A DNA stretch of 60,221 nt from Adlercreutzia sp. ZJ473 (lineage in GTDB: Bacteria; Actinomycetota; Coriobacteriia; Coriobacteriales; Eggerthellaceae). Shown here one piece after another: positions 3,189-46,125 of the stretch; within the stretch, counting starts at the first letter, position 1, and the number at the start of each line of letters is the position of its first letter. The notes under the pieces are model-generated. The model was given only the letters and a program-made list of their open reading frames with translations, was not told the DNA's origin and searched no databases. The DNA is taken from positions 1 to 60,221 of the forward strand of contig NZ_JAAVTO010000010.1 of NCBI RefSeq assembly GCF_013185065.1. Reading direction: 5' to 3'. The translations under genes were made by a program, and so were the position numbers.

Positions 3189-3773
3189 GTGGAACCGAAC
3201 ATCAAAGAGGTGGCAAATCGCATTCGCGCGCTGCGTGAGGACATGGACCTGTCGATGCAGGAGATGGCTGACGCCACGGGGCGCTCGGTGGCCGAGTACG
3301 CCGCGCAGGAGTCGGGCGAGCACGACCTGTCCTTCACCTTCCTCTACAAGTGCGCCGAGAAGTTCGGCGTCGACGTGATCGAGATACTCACCGGCGAGAA
3401 CCCGCACCTGACGGGCTACTCGCTCACGCGCGCGCATGACGGGCTGTCCATCAAGCGCCGCGCCGGCTTCGAGTACCTGCACAAGGCGCCGCACTTCCGC
3501 CACAAGCTCGCCGAGCCCTTCCTGGTAACGGCGCCCTACCTCGAGGAGGAGCAGGGCGTGCCCATCCACCTGTCGCGCCATGAGGGGCAGGAGATCGACT
3601 TCATCATCTCGGGCAAGATGCGCTTCGCCTACGAGGAGCACGTCGAGGAGCTCGAGGCGGGCGACATGCTCATGTACGACTCCGGCCGCGGCCACGGCAT
3701 GATCGCCGTCGGCGGCGAGCCGTGCGTCTTCCTGGCCATTGTTCTCAAGCCTCACGAGGACAAGATTATCTAG
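3189..3773 (+). CDS. XRE-family transcriptional regulator with C-terminal cupin (copy 1)
   Basis: A DNA-binding helix-turn-helix of the XRE type occupies residues about 5-65 (IRALREDMDLSMQEMADATG...). A cupin barrel follows in about 110-190 (RHEGQEIDFIISGKMRFAY, GDMLMYDSGRGHGM), a likely small-ligand sensor. The GTG start lies 6-7 bases after a strong GAAGGAGG ribosome site; total 194 aa. It lies just upstream of an acyl-CoA synthetase and has a paralogue at 9399 with the same neighbour. Regulation of these synthetases, perhaps in response to their substrate, is inference. Confidence 0.9.
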   Translation: MEPNIKEVANRIRALREDMDLSMQEMADATGRSVAEYAAQESGEHDLSFTFLYKCAEKFGVDVIEILTGENPHLTGYSLTRAHDGLSIKRRAGFEYLHKAPHFRHKLAEPFLVTAPYLEEEQGVPIHLSRHEGQEIDFIISGKMRFAYEEHVEELEAGDMLMYDSGRGHGMIAVGGEPCVFLAIVLKPHEDKII

Positions 3774-3799
3774 GCGCTGCGCAGACGCGCCAGCGCCTA
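3771..3799 (+). terminator. Hairpin after the XRE-cupin stop codon
   Basis: A perfect 9-bp stem TAGGCGCTG / CAGCGCCTA with an 11-base loop starts at the stop codon itself. No U-tract follows, so it may act as a partial terminator or as an mRNA-stabilising structure between the regulator gene and the synthetase gene. Confidence 0.4.
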
Positions 3800-3870
3800 A
3801 CAAATGCCGTCTTGTTCGCTTCGCGCAGCGACGTAAGGCCGCTGCGCCCTGATCGCTGAGGAATACTACC

Positions 3871-5655
3871 ATGAGAAACATCAACCTTCGCTACGTGAGC
3901 GAGTCCTACGACGAGAAGGGCCTGCTCACCTCCTTCGACGTACACTACCCCGAGGACTTCAACTTCGGCTACGACGTGGTCGACGACATCGCCGTCGCCG
4001 ACCCCGACCGGCGCGCCATGGTGTGGTGCAACCCCGAGGGCGAGCAGCACACCTTCACCTTCGCCGACATGAAGACGTGGTCGGACAAGACGGCGAACTA
4101 CCTGGCGAGCCTCGGCATCGGGCGGGGGGACTACGTGATGGTCATCCTGCGCCGCCACTACCAGTTCTGGTTCGTGGCCACCGCGCTCGCCAAGCTCGGC
4201 GCCGTCATGGTGCCCGCCACCTTCATGCTCAAGGAGCACGACCTCACCTACCGCGTGAACGGCGCGGACATCAAGGCCGTCATCTGCACGAACGCCGGCG
4301 ACATCGCGAACGTGGTGGACGCCGTGGCCGACGAGTGCCCCAGCCTCGTGACGCGCGTCCTGGTGAACTCGCCGGGCGCGGGCCTCACCCCGCGCGACGA
4401 GGCGGGCAACCTCCAGGTGGCGGAAGGCGAGCTCGTGGGAAGCGCCCTGTCGGGCGAGGAGGGCGTCTGCGCCGCGCCCGTCGAGCGCGCGGGGTGGCAC
4501 GACTTCAACACCGGCGTGCGCGCGGCCTCGGCTGACTTCGCCCGCCGCGAGACGCGCGCGGCCGACCCCATGCTCATGTACTTCTCGAGCGGCACGTCGG
4601 GCAACCCCAAGATGGTGCTGCATGACAGCGGATACGCGATCGGGCACTTGATCACGGCGAAGCACTGGCACAACGTGCGCCCGGACGGCATCCACTTCAC
4701 CATCGCCGACACGGGCTGGGGCAAGGCCGTGTGGGGCAAGTACTACGGCCAGTGGCTCATGGAGGCGTGCGTGTTCACGTACGACTTCGACCGCTTCCAC
4801 CCCGCCGAGATCCTCTCGCTCGTGGGCAAGTACCACATCACCACGCTGTGCTGCCCGCCGACCATGTACCGCCTCATGATGCAGGAGGACATCGACGCGT
4901 TCGACCTGAGCACGCTCGAGTACTCCACCACGGCGGGCGAGGCGCTCAACCCCGATCTGTTCGACTTCTGGAAGGAGCACACGGGGCTCACCATCTACGA
5001 GGGCTTCGGCCAGACCGAGACGCCGCTCACCATCGCGAACCTCACGAACTCCACGCCGCGCGCGGGCTCGATGGGCAAGCCCGTGCCGCTGTACCGCGTG
5101 GCCATCCTGCGCGAGGACGGCACGGAGTGCAGCGTGGGCGAGACGGGCGAGATCTGCATCAACATCGACCCGCACCCGGCGGGCATCATGATGGAGTACT
5201 ACCGCGACCCGGCCAAGACCGCCGCTGCGATGCACGACGGCTGGTACCACACCGGCGACACCGCGTGGGCCGACGAGGACGGCTACTACTGGTACGTGGG
5301 CCGCAACGACGACGTCATCAAGTCGAGCGGCTACCGCATCGGCCCCTTCGAGATCGAGAGCGTCATGCTCGAGCACGACGCCGTGCGCGAGTGCGCCGTC
5401 ACGGGCGTGCCCGACGAGGTGCGCGGCAAGGCCGTGAAGGCCACCGTGGTCCTCGCCGAGGGGTTCGCGCCGTCAGAGGCGCTCACGCGCGAGCTGCAGA
5501 AGTGGGTGAAGAACAAGACGGCGCCGTACAAGTACCCGCGCATCGTGGAGTACGTGGACGAGCTGCCGCGCACCGTCAACGGGAAGATCCGCCGCGTGGC
5601 CATCCGCGAGGCGGACGAGGCCGCGGGCAAGGCGACCCCCGAGGGGCTGGTGTAG
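3871..5655 (+). CDS. AMP-forming acyl-CoA synthetase (acetyl-CoA synthetase-like), copy 1
   Basis: Activates a carboxylic acid with ATP and CoA via an acyl-adenylate (ANL superfamily); 594 aa. The phosphate-binding loop is YFSSGTSGNPKM (about residue 236). The adenylation motif EGFGQTETP, the hinge region TGDTAWADEDGYYWYVGRNDDVIKSSGYRIGPFEIE and the catalytic-lysine region RTVNGKIRR are all visible. Substrate cannot be told from sequence alone; short or branched acids are plausible next to a 2-oxoacid oxidoreductase. The N-terminal FNFGYDVVDD is shared with the second copy at 10147. The ATG follows TGAGGAA. Confidence 0.9.
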   Translation: MRNINLRYVSESYDEKGLLTSFDVHYPEDFNFGYDVVDDIAVADPDRRAMVWCNPEGEQHTFTFADMKTWSDKTANYLASLGIGRGDYVMVILRRHYQFWFVATALAKLGAVMVPATFMLKEHDLTYRVNGADIKAVICTNAGDIANVVDAVADECPSLVTRVLVNSPGAGLTPRDEAGNLQVAEGELVGSALSGEEGVCAAPVERAGWHDFNTGVRAASADFARRETRAADPMLMYFSSGTSGNPKMVLHDSGYAIGHLITAKHWHNVRPDGIHFTIADTGWGKAVWGKYYGQWLMEACVFTYDFDRFHPAEILSLVGKYHITTLCCPPTMYRLMMQEDIDAFDLSTLEYSTTAGEALNPDLFDFWKEHTGLTIYEGFGQTETPLTIANLTNSTPRAGSMGKPVPLYRVAILREDGTECSVGETGEICINIDPHPAGIMMEYYRDPAKTAAAMHDGWYHTGDTAWADEDGYYWYVGRNDDVIKSSGYRIGPFEIESVMLEHDAVRECAVTGVPDEVRGKAVKATVVLAEGFAPSEALTRELQKWVKNKTAPYKYPRIVEYVDELPRTVNGKIRRVAIREADEAAGKATPEGLV

Positions 5656-5656
5656 C

Positions 5657-6646
5657 ATGGGCGCGGACGCCTGCGCCTCTGCCTGCGCCTCTGCCTGCGC
5701 CGCGGGCGCGGAGCGCGCCGGCGGCGTGCCCTTCGCGCTCGCCCCGGTGAACGTGGTGGCGGGCCACTACGGCGTGGGCAAGACGAACCTCGCGATCAAC
5801 CTGGCGATCGACGCCGCGCGGGCGGGGCATGACGTCACGCTCGTCGACCTCGACGTGGTGAACCCGTACTTCCGCTCGACCGAGTACCGCGGCGTGCTCG
5901 AGGAGGCGGGCGTCGACGTGGTGGCGCCCGTGTTCGCCGAGGCGGGGTCGAGCCTCGACGTGCCGTCCCTCACGGGCGCCGTCGTCCCCGCCGTCGAGCG
6001 CGCCTACGCCGACGCTGCTTTTGAGGATGCAGGGGGCGCCGCGGAGGGGCGGACGCGGAGCAGAGCTCAGTCGCTCGGACAGTCCTGCTCGCACGGAAGC
6101 GCCGCAGGCGCTTCCGGCTCGTGCGGAACTCGCTTGGTGAGCACCGCACCGCGTCCGCCCCTCCACCCCCAAGTCTCTGCGCCGTGCCGGGGCGGCGGAC
6201 GCGCCCGCATCGACGCCGCGCCGTCGCCCCGCACCGTCGTCATCATCGACGCGGGCGGCGACGACGCGGGCGCCATGGCGCTCGGCCGCTTCGCGCGCCA
6301 CGTGGCGGCGGGCCCCTACGCGCTGATCTACGTGGTGAACCGCTTCCGCAACCTGACGCAGGAGCCCGACGAGGCCCTCGAGGTGCTCGCCGAGATCGAG
6401 CGCGCGGCGCGCCTGCGCGCCACCGGCGCCGTGAGCAACGCGCACCTCAAGGCCGACACCACCGGCGAGGTGGTAGCGCGCGGCGCGGCGTTCGCGCAAG
6501 CGGTCGCCGACGCCGCAGGGCTTCCGCTCCTGTGCGTTACGGCGCCAAAAACGCTCACTCAGCCAGAATCCGACGAACTGTCATCGTTGCGAGGCGCCTT
6601 CAACCTGTATCCTGTTGAGCTGCGTGTGAAGACGCCCTGGGAATGA
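5657..6646 (+). CDS. P-loop ATPase/nucleotide-binding protein carrying an internal repeat element
   Basis: The N-terminal part has a Walker A motif in GHYGVGKTNLAINLA (about residues 35-50) and LVDLDVVNPYF, as in ParA/MinD-like or CobQ/CbiA-type ATPases. The C-terminal part resumes with VVIIDAGGDDAGAMALGRFA. Between them, about residues 120-195 are a low-complexity Ser/Gly/Ala/Arg stretch encoded by repeat copy 1 (6043-6164) and its flanks. The reading frame stays open through the element, so the protein may be made with an inserted linker or may be inactivated. The start is 1 bp after the synthetase stop. Its exact role is unknown. Confidence 0.75.
   Translation: MGADACASACASACAAGAERAGGVPFALAPVNVVAGHYGVGKTNLAINLAIDAARAGHDVTLVDLDVVNPYFRSTEYRGVLEEAGVDVVAPVFAEAGSSLDVPSLTGAVVPAVERAYADAAFEDAGGAAEGRTRSRAQSLGQSCSHGSAAGASGSCGTRLVSTAPRPPLHPQVSAPCRGGGRARIDAAPSPRTVVIIDAGGDDAGAMALGRFARHVAAGPYALIYVVNRFRNLTQEPDEALEVLAEIERAARLRATGAVSNAHLKADTTGEVVARGAAFAQAVADAAGLPLLCVTAPKTLTQPESDELSSLRGAFNLYPVELRVKTPWE
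6043..6164 (+). repeat. Dispersed structured repeat, copy 1 (inside the P-loop ATPase gene)
   Basis: The outer stem is a perfect 16-bp inverted repeat (6043-6058 with 6149-6164, GGAGGGGCGGACGCGG and its complement). Inside lie the shared core (GCTCA at 6065-6069 pairing with TGAGC at 6138-6142) and an inner hairpin GGAAGCGCC-GCA-GGCGCTTCC (6095-6115). The core is almost identical to copies at 36268 and 46002, while the outer stem sequence is specific to this copy. It lies within an open reading frame and keeps the frame open. Confidence 0.85.
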
Positions 6647-9402: not shown

Positions 9403-9953
9403 GCATGGACGAGCTGAAGGAGATCGGCCTGCGCATCCAGGGTCTGCGCGAGGCGTGCGACATGACGCCCGAGGAGATGGCGCGCGAGCTGGAAGTGAGC
9501 GTCGAGCAGTACCTGAGCTGGGAGGAGACGGGGGCTGACGTCCCCATCTCGGCCATCTACCACATGGCGCACGAGTTCGGCGTCGACCTCACCGAGATCC
9601 TCACGGGGACGGCGGCGAAGCTCGACACCTACCACGTGGTGCGCCGCGGGCAGGGCAAGGAAGTCGACCGCTACCCGGGCTACCACTACGACGACATGGC
9701 ATGGCGCTACTCCAACAAGATCATGCAGCCGCTCGTGGTGGTGCTCGACCCCTCTGACGAGCCGGCGAAGCTCGTCTCTCACCAGGGGCAGGAGTTCAAC
9801 TTCGTCATCGAGGGCTCCATCGTGGTGACCTTCGACGACAAGGAGATCGTGCTCGACGAGTGGGACAGCATCTACTTCAACCCCACGCACCCGCACGGCC
9901 AGCGCTGCCACGGCGACAAGACCGCGAAATTCATCACGATCATCGCCGAATAG
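9399..9953 (+). CDS. XRE-family transcriptional regulator with C-terminal cupin (copy 2)
   Basis: Paralogue of the gene at 3189: HTH in residues about 5-62 (IGLRIQGLREACDMTPEEMARELEVSVEQYLSWEE) and cupin in about 100-180 (LVSHQGQEFNFVIEGSIVVTF, DSIYFNPTHPHGQRC). The start is ATG at 9399, overlapping the gamma stop by 4 bp; ATG at 9405 is an alternative. Length 184 aa. Lying between the oxidoreductase and a second acyl-CoA synthetase, it is a candidate regulator of both (inference). Confidence 0.9.
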   Translation: MSMDELKEIGLRIQGLREACDMTPEEMARELEVSVEQYLSWEETGADVPISAIYHMAHEFGVDLTEILTGTAAKLDTYHVVRRGQGKEVDRYPGYHYDDMAWRYSNKIMQPLVVVLDPSDEPAKLVSHQGQEFNFVIEGSIVVTFDDKEIVLDEWDSIYFNPTHPHGQRCHGDKTAKFITIIAE

Positions 9954-9978
9954 GCAGGTAGAGATCTGCTGTCGTTCG

Positions 9979-10094
9979 CGTCGGGTCGCGGGGCAATGCT
10001 CAGCCGCTCAGACAGTCCTGCTCGCGCGAAATGCTTAGCAAGCATTTCGGCTCGTGCGGAACTCGCTTGGTGAGCACAGCCCCGCGCCCCGGCG
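9979..10094 (+). repeat. Dispersed structured repeat, copy 2 (diverged)
   Basis: The outer arms 9979-9994 and 10079-10094 pair at 15 of 16 positions (one as G-T). The core keeps GCTCAGCCGCTCAGACAGTC and GGCTCGTGCGGAACTCGCTT nearly as in the other copies. The inner hairpin has a completely different sequence, CGAAATGCTT-AGC-AAGCATTTCG (10027-10049), yet pairs perfectly over 10 bp. GCACG of the other copies is GCGCG here, opposite CGTGC, which still pairs as RNA through G-U. It fills the 193-bp gap between the regulator and the second synthetase. Confidence 0.85.
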
Positions 10095-10146
10095 CTGCGT
10101 TCTCTCAGTTGAAACCACATGCTTTGAAGGAGCCTAGAGAAATCCC

Positions 10147-11820
10147 ATGGATTACATCTTGAAGAAATACTGCCCCCGCATCGAGTTCGACTCGTACGAG
10201 GACTTCTACGCCAACTTCCGCATCGACGTGCCCGAGGTGTTCAACTTCGGCTACGACGTGGTGGACGAGTGGGCGCGCGTCGAGCCCGGCAAGCGCGCGC
10301 TTCTGTGGTGCGACGACGCGGGGGAGGAGCGCACCTTCACCTTCACCGACATCTCCCGCCTGTCGAACAAGACGGCCAACGCCTTCCGCAAGATGGGCAT
10401 CGGCAAGGGCGACGTCGTCATGTGCATCCTGCGCCGCCGCTGGGAGTACTGGGTGGTGGCCACGGCGCTGTGCAAGCTGGGCGCGACCATCATCCCGGCG
10501 TCGCTGCAGCTCACCAAGAAGGACATCGTGTACCGCGCGAACAGCGCGAACGTGAAGATGATGGTGTGCGTGGACGACGACTACGTGTGCACCCAGACCG
10601 AGCTCGCGCTGCCTGACGCGCCGACCATCACCAACCGCGTGGTCGTGGCGGGAGGCCGCGAAGGCTGGACGAGCTTCGACGAGCTGATCGCCGACGAGCC
10701 CGACGCCTTCGAGCGCCCCACCGGCGAGGCGGGCGTCACGAGCAAGGACATCATGCTCATCTACTTCACGAGCGGCACCACGGGCAACGCGAAGGCGGTG
10801 TGCCACAACTTCGCGCATCCCCTGGGCCACATCATCACGGCCAAGTACTGGCAGCAGGTGCATGAGAACGAGCTGCACATGAGCGTGACCGACTCGGGCT
10901 GGGCCAAGTTCGGCTGGGGCAAGATCTACGGCCAGTGGATCGCGGGCGCCACGGTGTTCGTGTACGACATGATGAAGTTCGTGCCCACCAAGCTGCTGCA
11001 GAAGATCCAGGACTACAAGCTCACCACGTTCTGCGCGCCGCCGACCATGTACCGCTTCATGCTGCAGGAGGACGTGGCGGCCTATGACCTGTCGAGCGTG
11101 CAGAACTTCGCCACGGCGGGCGAGCCGCTGAACGCCGAGGTCACCATCCAGTGGGAGCGCCTCACGGGCAAGAAGATCCGCGAGGGCTTCGGCCAGACCG
11201 AGGGACCGGTGCTCCTGGCCACCTTCCCCTGGGTCGAGCCGCGCCCCGGCTCCATGGGCAAGCCGTCGCCCCTGCTCAACATCAAGCTGCTCGACGACGA
11301 CGGCGTCGAGGTGGAGGACGGCGAGGAGGGCGCCATCTGCGTCACGGGCCTGAAGGAGGCCTACCCGCCGGGCCTGTTCGTGGGTTACTACCGCGACGAG
11401 GAGCGCACGCGCGAGGCCGTGGGCGGGGAGTACTACAACCTGCATGACATGGCGTGGCGCGACTCCGACGGCTACTGCTTCTTCGTGGGGCGCAACGACG
11501 ACGTCATCAAGTGCTCGGGCTACCGCATCGGGCCCTTCGAGGTGGAGAGCGCGCTCGTGGAGCACCCGGCCGTGGTGGAGTGCGCGGTGACGGCCGCGCC
11601 CGACCCCATCCGCGGCAAGGTGGTGAAGGCGACCATCGTGCTCGCGCGCGGGTACGAGCCCTCCGACGAGCTGGTCAAGGAGCTGCAGAACCACGTGAAG
11701 AAGACGACGGCGCCGTACAAGTACCCGCGCATCGTCGAGTTCACCGACGAGCTGCCCAAGACCATCGGCGGCAAGATCAAGCGCAAGCTCATCCGCACGA
11801 ACGACGGCGTGGTGGACTAG
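10147..11820 (+). CDS. AMP-forming acyl-CoA synthetase (acetyl-CoA synthetase-like), copy 2
   Basis: ANL-superfamily ligase of 557 aa, clearly paralogous to the gene at 3871. It has IYFTSGTTGNAKAV (phosphate loop), EGFGQTEGPVL, VGRNDDVIKCSGYRIGPFEVE (hinge) and KTIGGKIKRKLIR (catalytic Lys). Both paralogues share FNFGYDVVDEW-type N-termini and YRFMLQEDV/YRLMMQEDI blocks. ATG at 10147 follows GAAGGAG at a longer than usual distance. Substrate is not determinable here. A strong bidirectional terminator follows. Confidence 0.9.
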   Translation: MDYILKKYCPRIEFDSYEDFYANFRIDVPEVFNFGYDVVDEWARVEPGKRALLWCDDAGEERTFTFTDISRLSNKTANAFRKMGIGKGDVVMCILRRRWEYWVVATALCKLGATIIPASLQLTKKDIVYRANSANVKMMVCVDDDYVCTQTELALPDAPTITNRVVVAGGREGWTSFDELIADEPDAFERPTGEAGVTSKDIMLIYFTSGTTGNAKAVCHNFAHPLGHIITAKYWQQVHENELHMSVTDSGWAKFGWGKIYGQWIAGATVFVYDMMKFVPTKLLQKIQDYKLTTFCAPPTMYRFMLQEDVAAYDLSSVQNFATAGEPLNAEVTIQWERLTGKKIREGFGQTEGPVLLATFPWVEPRPGSMGKPSPLLNIKLLDDDGVEVEDGEEGAICVTGLKEAYPPGLFVGYYRDEERTREAVGGEYYNLHDMAWRDSDGYCFFVGRNDDVIKCSGYRIGPFEVESALVEHPAVVECAVTAAPDPIRGKVVKATIVLARGYEPSDELVKELQNHVKKTTAPYKYPRIVEFTDELPKTIGGKIKRKLIRTNDGVVD

Positions 11821-36267: not shown

Positions 36268-36391
36268 GGCGCGGCGGGAGCCCGGGCAGAGCTCAGTCGC
36301 TCGGACAGTCCTGCTCGCACGGAAGCGCCGCCGGCGCTTCCGGCTCGTGCGGAACTCGCTTGGTGAGCACCGCCCGGGCTCCCGCCGCGCC
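36268..36391 (+). repeat. Dispersed structured repeat, copy 3
   Basis: Between lepA and the convergent reductase gene. Outer stem: perfect 20-bp inverted repeat GGCGCGGCGGGAGCCCGGGC (36268-36287) with its complement (36372-36391). A 3x3 internal gap AGA/ACC, then GCTCA/TGAGC, the invariant core and the inner hairpin GGAAGCGCC-GCC-GGCGCTTCC (36321-36341). The core differs from copy 4 only in the hairpin loop. Confidence 0.88.
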
Positions 36392-46001: not shown

Positions 46002-46125
46002 GGCGCCTCGGGAGCCCGGGCGGTGCTCACCAAGCGAGTTCCGCACGAGCCGGAAGCGCCAGCGGCGCTTCCGTGCGAGCAGGACTGTCCGAGCGACTGA
46101 GCTCTGCCCGGGCTCCCGAGGCGCC
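46002..46125 (-). repeat. Dispersed structured repeat, copy 4 (inverted)
   Basis: Lies between mtaB and phoH on the opposite strand to the other copies. Outer stem: perfect 20-bp inverted repeat GGCGCCTCGGGAGCCCGGGC (46002-46021) with its complement (46106-46125). Inner hairpin at 46052-46072. Relative to copy 3 the outer stem has GG changed to CT on one side and CC to AG on the other, so pairing is preserved. The core is otherwise the same as copy 3 apart from the hairpin loop. Confidence 0.88.

Follow-up and report, generated by a model that had tools for sequence, protein, structure and literature searches.

Rickettsia palindromic elements (RPEs) are 100-150-bp palindromes that occupy intergenic sites as well as in-frame positions in conserved protein genes, and for which no target duplication has been established (PMC2229807); their repeats are reported to become less identical over time (PMC6649704). 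Bacterial MITEs such as ERIC/IRU, Correia/NEMIS and RUP are dispersed, non-autonomous palindromes of ~100-150 bp, some copies of which lie in frame in genes, and have terminal inverted repeats that are conserved, together with a target duplication (PMC2229807). REP/BIME sequences, which are associated with RAYT (Y1) transposases, are palindromic, often intergenic and present in many copies, with individual REPs measuring 20-40 bp (PMC3733652). Finally, coding palindromes of Nematomorpha mitochondria form near-perfect inverted repeats within genes, and it has been proposed that template switching or repeat conversion keeps them perfect (PMC6649704). When a polymerase switches template between inverted repeats, the published signatures are homogenised arms, inverted spacers and multinucleotide mutations (PMC8604942; PMC8794818).

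The window analysed here, a 60,221-nucleotide stretch of DNA from Adlercreutzia sp. ZJ473, contains four copies of a palindromic element that shares some features with each of these systems. Like an RPE, it is a dispersed ~100-150-bp palindrome found in frame in conserved protein genes. It nevertheless belongs to another lineage, and in contrast to RPEs its stems are free in sequence and vary from almost every locus to the next, and their pairing remains close to perfect. The likeness is one of habit, drawn from descriptions of RPEs rather than from consensus sequences: the element works like an RPE, which is not to say that it is one. Although the size, dispersal and occasional in-frame placement of MITEs are likewise matched, conserved terminal inverted repeats are not a property of this element: its terminal arms differ between loci, being mostly locus-specific, with sharing confined to some recent bursts, and a target duplication was not observed. 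It is much longer than REP/BIME sequences, and Y1 transposases are absent from the copy-rich genomes. The Nematomorpha palindromes are mitochondrial and have not been described as a dispersed, core-bearing family, whereas the element discussed here has a conserved core. An open-access literature library yielded no published description of it in Coriobacteriia, and it is best described as a new Coriobacteriia family of a known kind, the dispersed palindromic DNA element, with unusual arm evolution.

Our analysis centered on copy 2, which, as delimited by its letters, genome search, fold and arms, spans 9978..10095 on the plus strand when the outer arms are counted in. It lies between an XRE-cupin gene, whose stop codon is at 9953, and an acyl-CoA synthetase/AMP-ligase gene, which starts at 10147. 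Its parts likewise read on the plus strand. The left outer arm, GCGTCGGGTCGCGGGGC (9978..9994), is locus-specific in sequence and faces the complementary right outer arm, GCCCCGCGCCCCGGCGC (10079..10095), with 2 positions that are not Watson-Crick. Inside these lie the left half of the conserved core, AATGCTCAGCCGCTCAGACAGTCCTGCTCGCG (9995..10026), and its right half, GCTCGTGCGGAACTCGCTTGGTGAGCACA (10050..10078), which enclose the inner hairpin CGAAATGCTT-AGC-AAGCATTTCG (10027..10049). The free-sequence stem of this hairpin is formed by 10027-10036 and 10040-10049, with GCTCGCG and GCTCGTGCGG as its flanks. These letters agree with those given in an earlier note on this DNA, which had called the inner hairpin wholly different from that of copies 1, 3 and 4 but still perfectly paired. 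The pairing is indeed perfect; the difference extends to 6 of the 10 inner-stem pairs, all of them compensated (CGGAAGCGCC versus CGAAATGCTT, closing C-G counted), rather than to the whole stem. Similarly, the G-U attributed to the segments GCGCG and CGTGC is present in the letters and represents one possible register, but it reflects a one-sided change and goes unused in the minimum-energy fold, where both segments pair otherwise. The outer arms, which that note had not included, constitute a third paired segment that is equally variable. The two 26-nt core halves occur exactly 4 times in the window, precisely where the copies lie, and none of 100 shuffles contained them, while a 106-nt query matched 21 places (~20 copies) in the 2.63-Mb genome to which the window belongs. 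Copy 2 is thus a true member of the family, which rules out an unrelated sequence with a chance match to the core.

Copy 1 (6043..6164, plus strand) was identified by homologue comparison as an in-frame insertion in a ParA-like gene (5657-6646). Residues ~122-190 of the ParA-like protein lack a counterpart in homologues, and a protein-family search recognised the host protein but not the insert. The copy is absent from the relative G002, which is 95-99% identical on either side. Copy 3 (36268..36391, plus strand) lies downstream of a lepA-like gene, and its orthologous site is also filled in other genera (L208, L305). Copy 4 occupies 46002..46125 on the minus strand. Copies 3 and 4 have 12 bp of core-adjacent arm in common; farther from the core, a dinucleotide differs between them in compensated fashion (gg/cc to ct/ag). 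The window additionally holds two successive XRE-cupin and AMP-ligase gene sets (3189-5655 and 9406-11820), apparently duplicated, which flank 2-oxoacid oxidoreductase genes on either side.

Beyond the genome of the window, an 83-nt core query found matches in 23 of 60 relatives. These belong to Eggerthellaceae as well as to other families of the order and have up to 20 copies each, copy-rich genomes holding about 20. The element was also found in Collinsella aerofaciens. We catalogued 125 distinct copies. The element is ~110-150 bp long, and consists of a conserved, mismatched core of ~80 nt placed between a free-sequence inner hairpin and free-sequence outer arms (~12-25 bp; median aligned length 24, core-proximal part counted). 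All 125 copies carry, exactly or in a closely related form, the core consensus, which reads GCTC-R-GACAGTCCTG..CTCG on its left side and CTCGTGCGGAACTCGC on its right side, and the core is not only mismatched but remains so. The inner hairpin exists in 88 versions among the catalogued copies, with its closing CC/GG conserved. The apical loop keeps its orientation, reading RCH in nearly all copies and AGT once, and left arms are strongly G-rich (922 G versus 368 C). Among the old sites are the lepA 3' flank, tsaB and the cupin-ligase interval, each occupied in several genera by elements with other arms, genome-specific cores and, in some cases, reversed orientation. A host role at these three sites is possible. 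The claim of the earlier note that the fold has been conserved over time therefore holds for the pattern, which is old and common to many genera.

Other repeats were encountered alongside the element. In relatives without the palindromic element in the cupin-ligase interval, that interval holds a second structured repeat family, GACGCTGCGAAGCGTTGATG..GATCTTGCCG..CGGCAATCTCGG..CAACGCTTCTCGCTGAC; this family was seen upstream of the AMP-ligase gene at L054, L058, L062, L077, L078 and L106, and in the left flank of the C93 copy of G000 (L010). A short hairpin repeat, TCGTAGGGCMGAGATTYTATCTCKGCC, often adjoins the element in G019, either upstream (L212, L213, L215, L219) or downstream (L210, L217). 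The flank of L176 in G002 and about 25 places in G000 (query 472-558) carry a third hairpin repeat, ACCGACAACG..CGTTGTCGGT, which is likewise dispersed.

As judged by a custom codon-usage test made without a gene caller, 8 of the 20 copies in the genome of the window had the same reading frame on both sides and no stop through the element, with the gene on either strand. Based on Pfam, the hosts of in-frame copies include TrmD, whose domain is split in two by the insert, as well as HisH, Mfd, a TsaB-TsaD fusion, an ABC-F protein and others; the names HisH, Mfd, TsaB and ABC-F represent our interpretation of Pfam domains and sequence. In most intragenic copies, the frames read give Ala/Ser/Gly-rich peptides. 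Four sites are empty in close relatives and have neither hairpin nor arms there, namely those of copy 1 and C33 in G002, and the adk-map and C57 3' sites in G000. A separate ordinary terminator lies beside the elements at adk-map. Extra unaligned sequence accompanies the element at each of these insertions, so that the junction is not cleanly definable.

Recent bursts were apparent in two genomes. In G019, nine copies at unrelated loci have identical arms, sharp ends and TTT at the left end, indicating that arms can travel with the core; no target duplication is visible in these nine copies, for which a clean empty site is lacking. In G018, three loci have a 96-99% identical core and entirely different arms, indicating that arms can also be replaced locally. 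A search for empty sites of these bursts within the genera concerned led to one orthologous site that contained the element in flipped orientation and with different arms. No Y1 transposase was found in G000, G001, G002, G007, G019, G023 or G028, a set that includes copy-rich genomes, and mobilisation by Y1/RAYT was rejected on this basis. An IS110 transposase was not detected above cut-off in G001 or G002, nor a reverse transcriptase in G001, and both were rejected as carriers since their presence does not track copy number. With respect to carriage by phage or plasmid, there was no phage match, and one Collinsella record is a 900-kb replicon annotated as a plasmid; three viral contigs matched a pattern search, and the one inspected (L248) did not contain the element around the pattern. 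Since neither a transposase nor a target duplication was found, mobility of the element is read from its distribution.

We compared the arms at nine orthologous sites, eight between the genome of the window and its congener G002 and one between two Adlercreutzia. At these sites, 13 positions had changed on both arms and were still paired, compared with ~0.7 expected under independent arm change, and 14 had changed on one side only; the pairs were hand-chosen as alignable, with rearranged sites omitted, and the P value is only indicative. Changes in very recent copy pairs were mainly uncompensated. One G002 element, at the C68 site, has a left arm with 22 of 24 matching positions followed by a flipped core: core identity was 53 of 86 columns when flipped, versus 9 of 140 in the same orientation. 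The site of copy 2 holds two reversed tandem copies in G002. A complex inverted duplication is present at L168 of G002 (the C83b site), where the left half of the element is followed by a whole reversed element with new outer arms, an arrangement that a template-switch event might give.

Covariation of the inner hairpin, as claimed in the earlier note, goes far beyond chance. In 37 distinct 23-nt inner hairpins, 98.6% of the 370 cells were paired and 8 of the 10 pairs had changed on both sides; the same cells contained 89 two-sided changes and 0 one-sided changes to another standard pair. In 500 shuffles, neither the covariation score nor the percentage paired was ever reached, and the signal was lost when the partner was slid. 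The 125 catalogued copies contributed 1289 inner-stem pairs, among them 1268 Watson-Crick, 1 G.T and 6 A.C, while their outer arms contained 1439 Watson-Crick, 38 G.T and 52 A.C pairs with no strand preference (p = 0.17). As a control, 30 tRNAs of the same genome displayed 39 G.U in 624 pairs; that A.C is absent from this control may be due in part to the way in which ARAGORN draws stems.

Compensatory change in stems is standard evidence for a functional RNA, and the earlier note had read the G-U as a hint of one. A structured RNA, whether a regulator, a riboswitch-like element or a small RNA, with helices kept by selection, would account for the strong covariation of the inner stem, for the conserved core, which resembles an internal loop, for the conserved apical RCH loop, and for intergenic sites that have been kept for long periods, such as that downstream of lepA. 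However, if selection acted on an RNA helix, one strand should show G.U in preference to A.C, and no such preference was present, leaving this reading unsupported: G.T is nearly absent from the inner stems and no commoner than A.C in the outer arms, despite the frequency of G.U in the tRNAs. The element strand and its complement also gave equally good folds (30:30 copies), in-frame copies lie inside genes on both strands, and the core is flipped at an orthologous site. Rfam had nothing at gathering score for the element, its one match falling far below the cut-off (E = 0.9). We therefore regard a structured RNA as very unlikely. The covariation is genuine and the structure old, but an RNA reading is not supported; practically no wobble, together with copies inside genes in both orientations, indicates that the covariation most likely reflects a DNA process.

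What kind of DNA process is a separate matter. One view is that a DNA hairpin or cruciform is under direct selection, with a putative protein (a transposase, nucleoid or replication factor) binding the extruded mismatched core, such that selection rather than template switching would keep the stems paired. The restriction of sequence conservation to the core, with both stems free yet nearly perfect, fits this view, as do the conserved loop and closing CC/GG, and the sharp ends, left-end TTT and lack of an obvious target duplication in the recent burst. We nevertheless consider it unlikely, since close relatives show compensation at a pace that two independent mutations could reach only under very strong selection, and since the searches noted above yielded no Y1 transposase in the copy-rich G000, G001, G002, G019 and G028, no above-cut-off IS110 in either G001 or G002, and in G001 no reverse transcriptase either. 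Alternatively, a mobile cassette might insert into the loops of host hairpins such as terminators, in which case the outer arms would be host sequence. The three G018 loci, with their near-identical cores and unrelated arms, and the many intergenic copies are as this scenario would predict. Insertion into pre-existing terminator loops is disfavoured by the four empty sites, which have no such hairpin, and the separate terminator at adk-map, the arms common to several loci in G019 and the eight copies inside genes likewise count against it, making the cassette scenario highly implausible.

Taken together, these findings suggest that copy 2 is probably a dispersed palindromic DNA element of Coriobacteriia, RPE-like in habit, in which pairing of the arms is most likely maintained at the level of DNA. 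Recent bursts, in-frame copies in protein genes and empty sites without arms are points in favor of a DNA element. We propose that the palindrome folds during replication and that the polymerase may then switch template between the arms, so that mismatches would be copied away and the arms homogenised; the same switching might occasionally flip the core. The 13 two-sided paired changes against 0.7 expected speak for this, and the dinucleotide difference between copies 3 and 4 and the inversion of the core match the published signatures of template switching. Counting against this explanation as a whole are the mainly uncompensated changes in recent pairs, the lack of a transposase or target duplication, and the old sites filled across genera, which could mean a host function. 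In addition, the mismatched core and the fixed orientation of the RCH loop argue that something selects sequence on one strand; homogenisation does not account for the sequence constraint seen in the core, in the RCH loop and in the left arm with its many G. The core may be conserved because something needs its sequence, probably a putative mobilising protein, or else exchange between copies. We put forward, tentatively and as somewhat less than an even prospect, an undescribed class-wide DNA element whose stems are rewritten arm against arm by template switching, and whose mismatched core would be the recognition site of a putative mobilising protein.

These results have bearing on how such elements are recognised, in that covariation scores alone can label a palindromic DNA element an RNA. 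They also show that common gut bacteria carry in-frame palindromic insertions in essential genes, similar to those described in Rickettsia, and provide a family with many stems for measuring template-switch correction in bacteria. If the template-switch reading is true, the family would preserve, in bacteria, a natural record of how palindromes are corrected and their cores inverted, one that extends even into essential genes.
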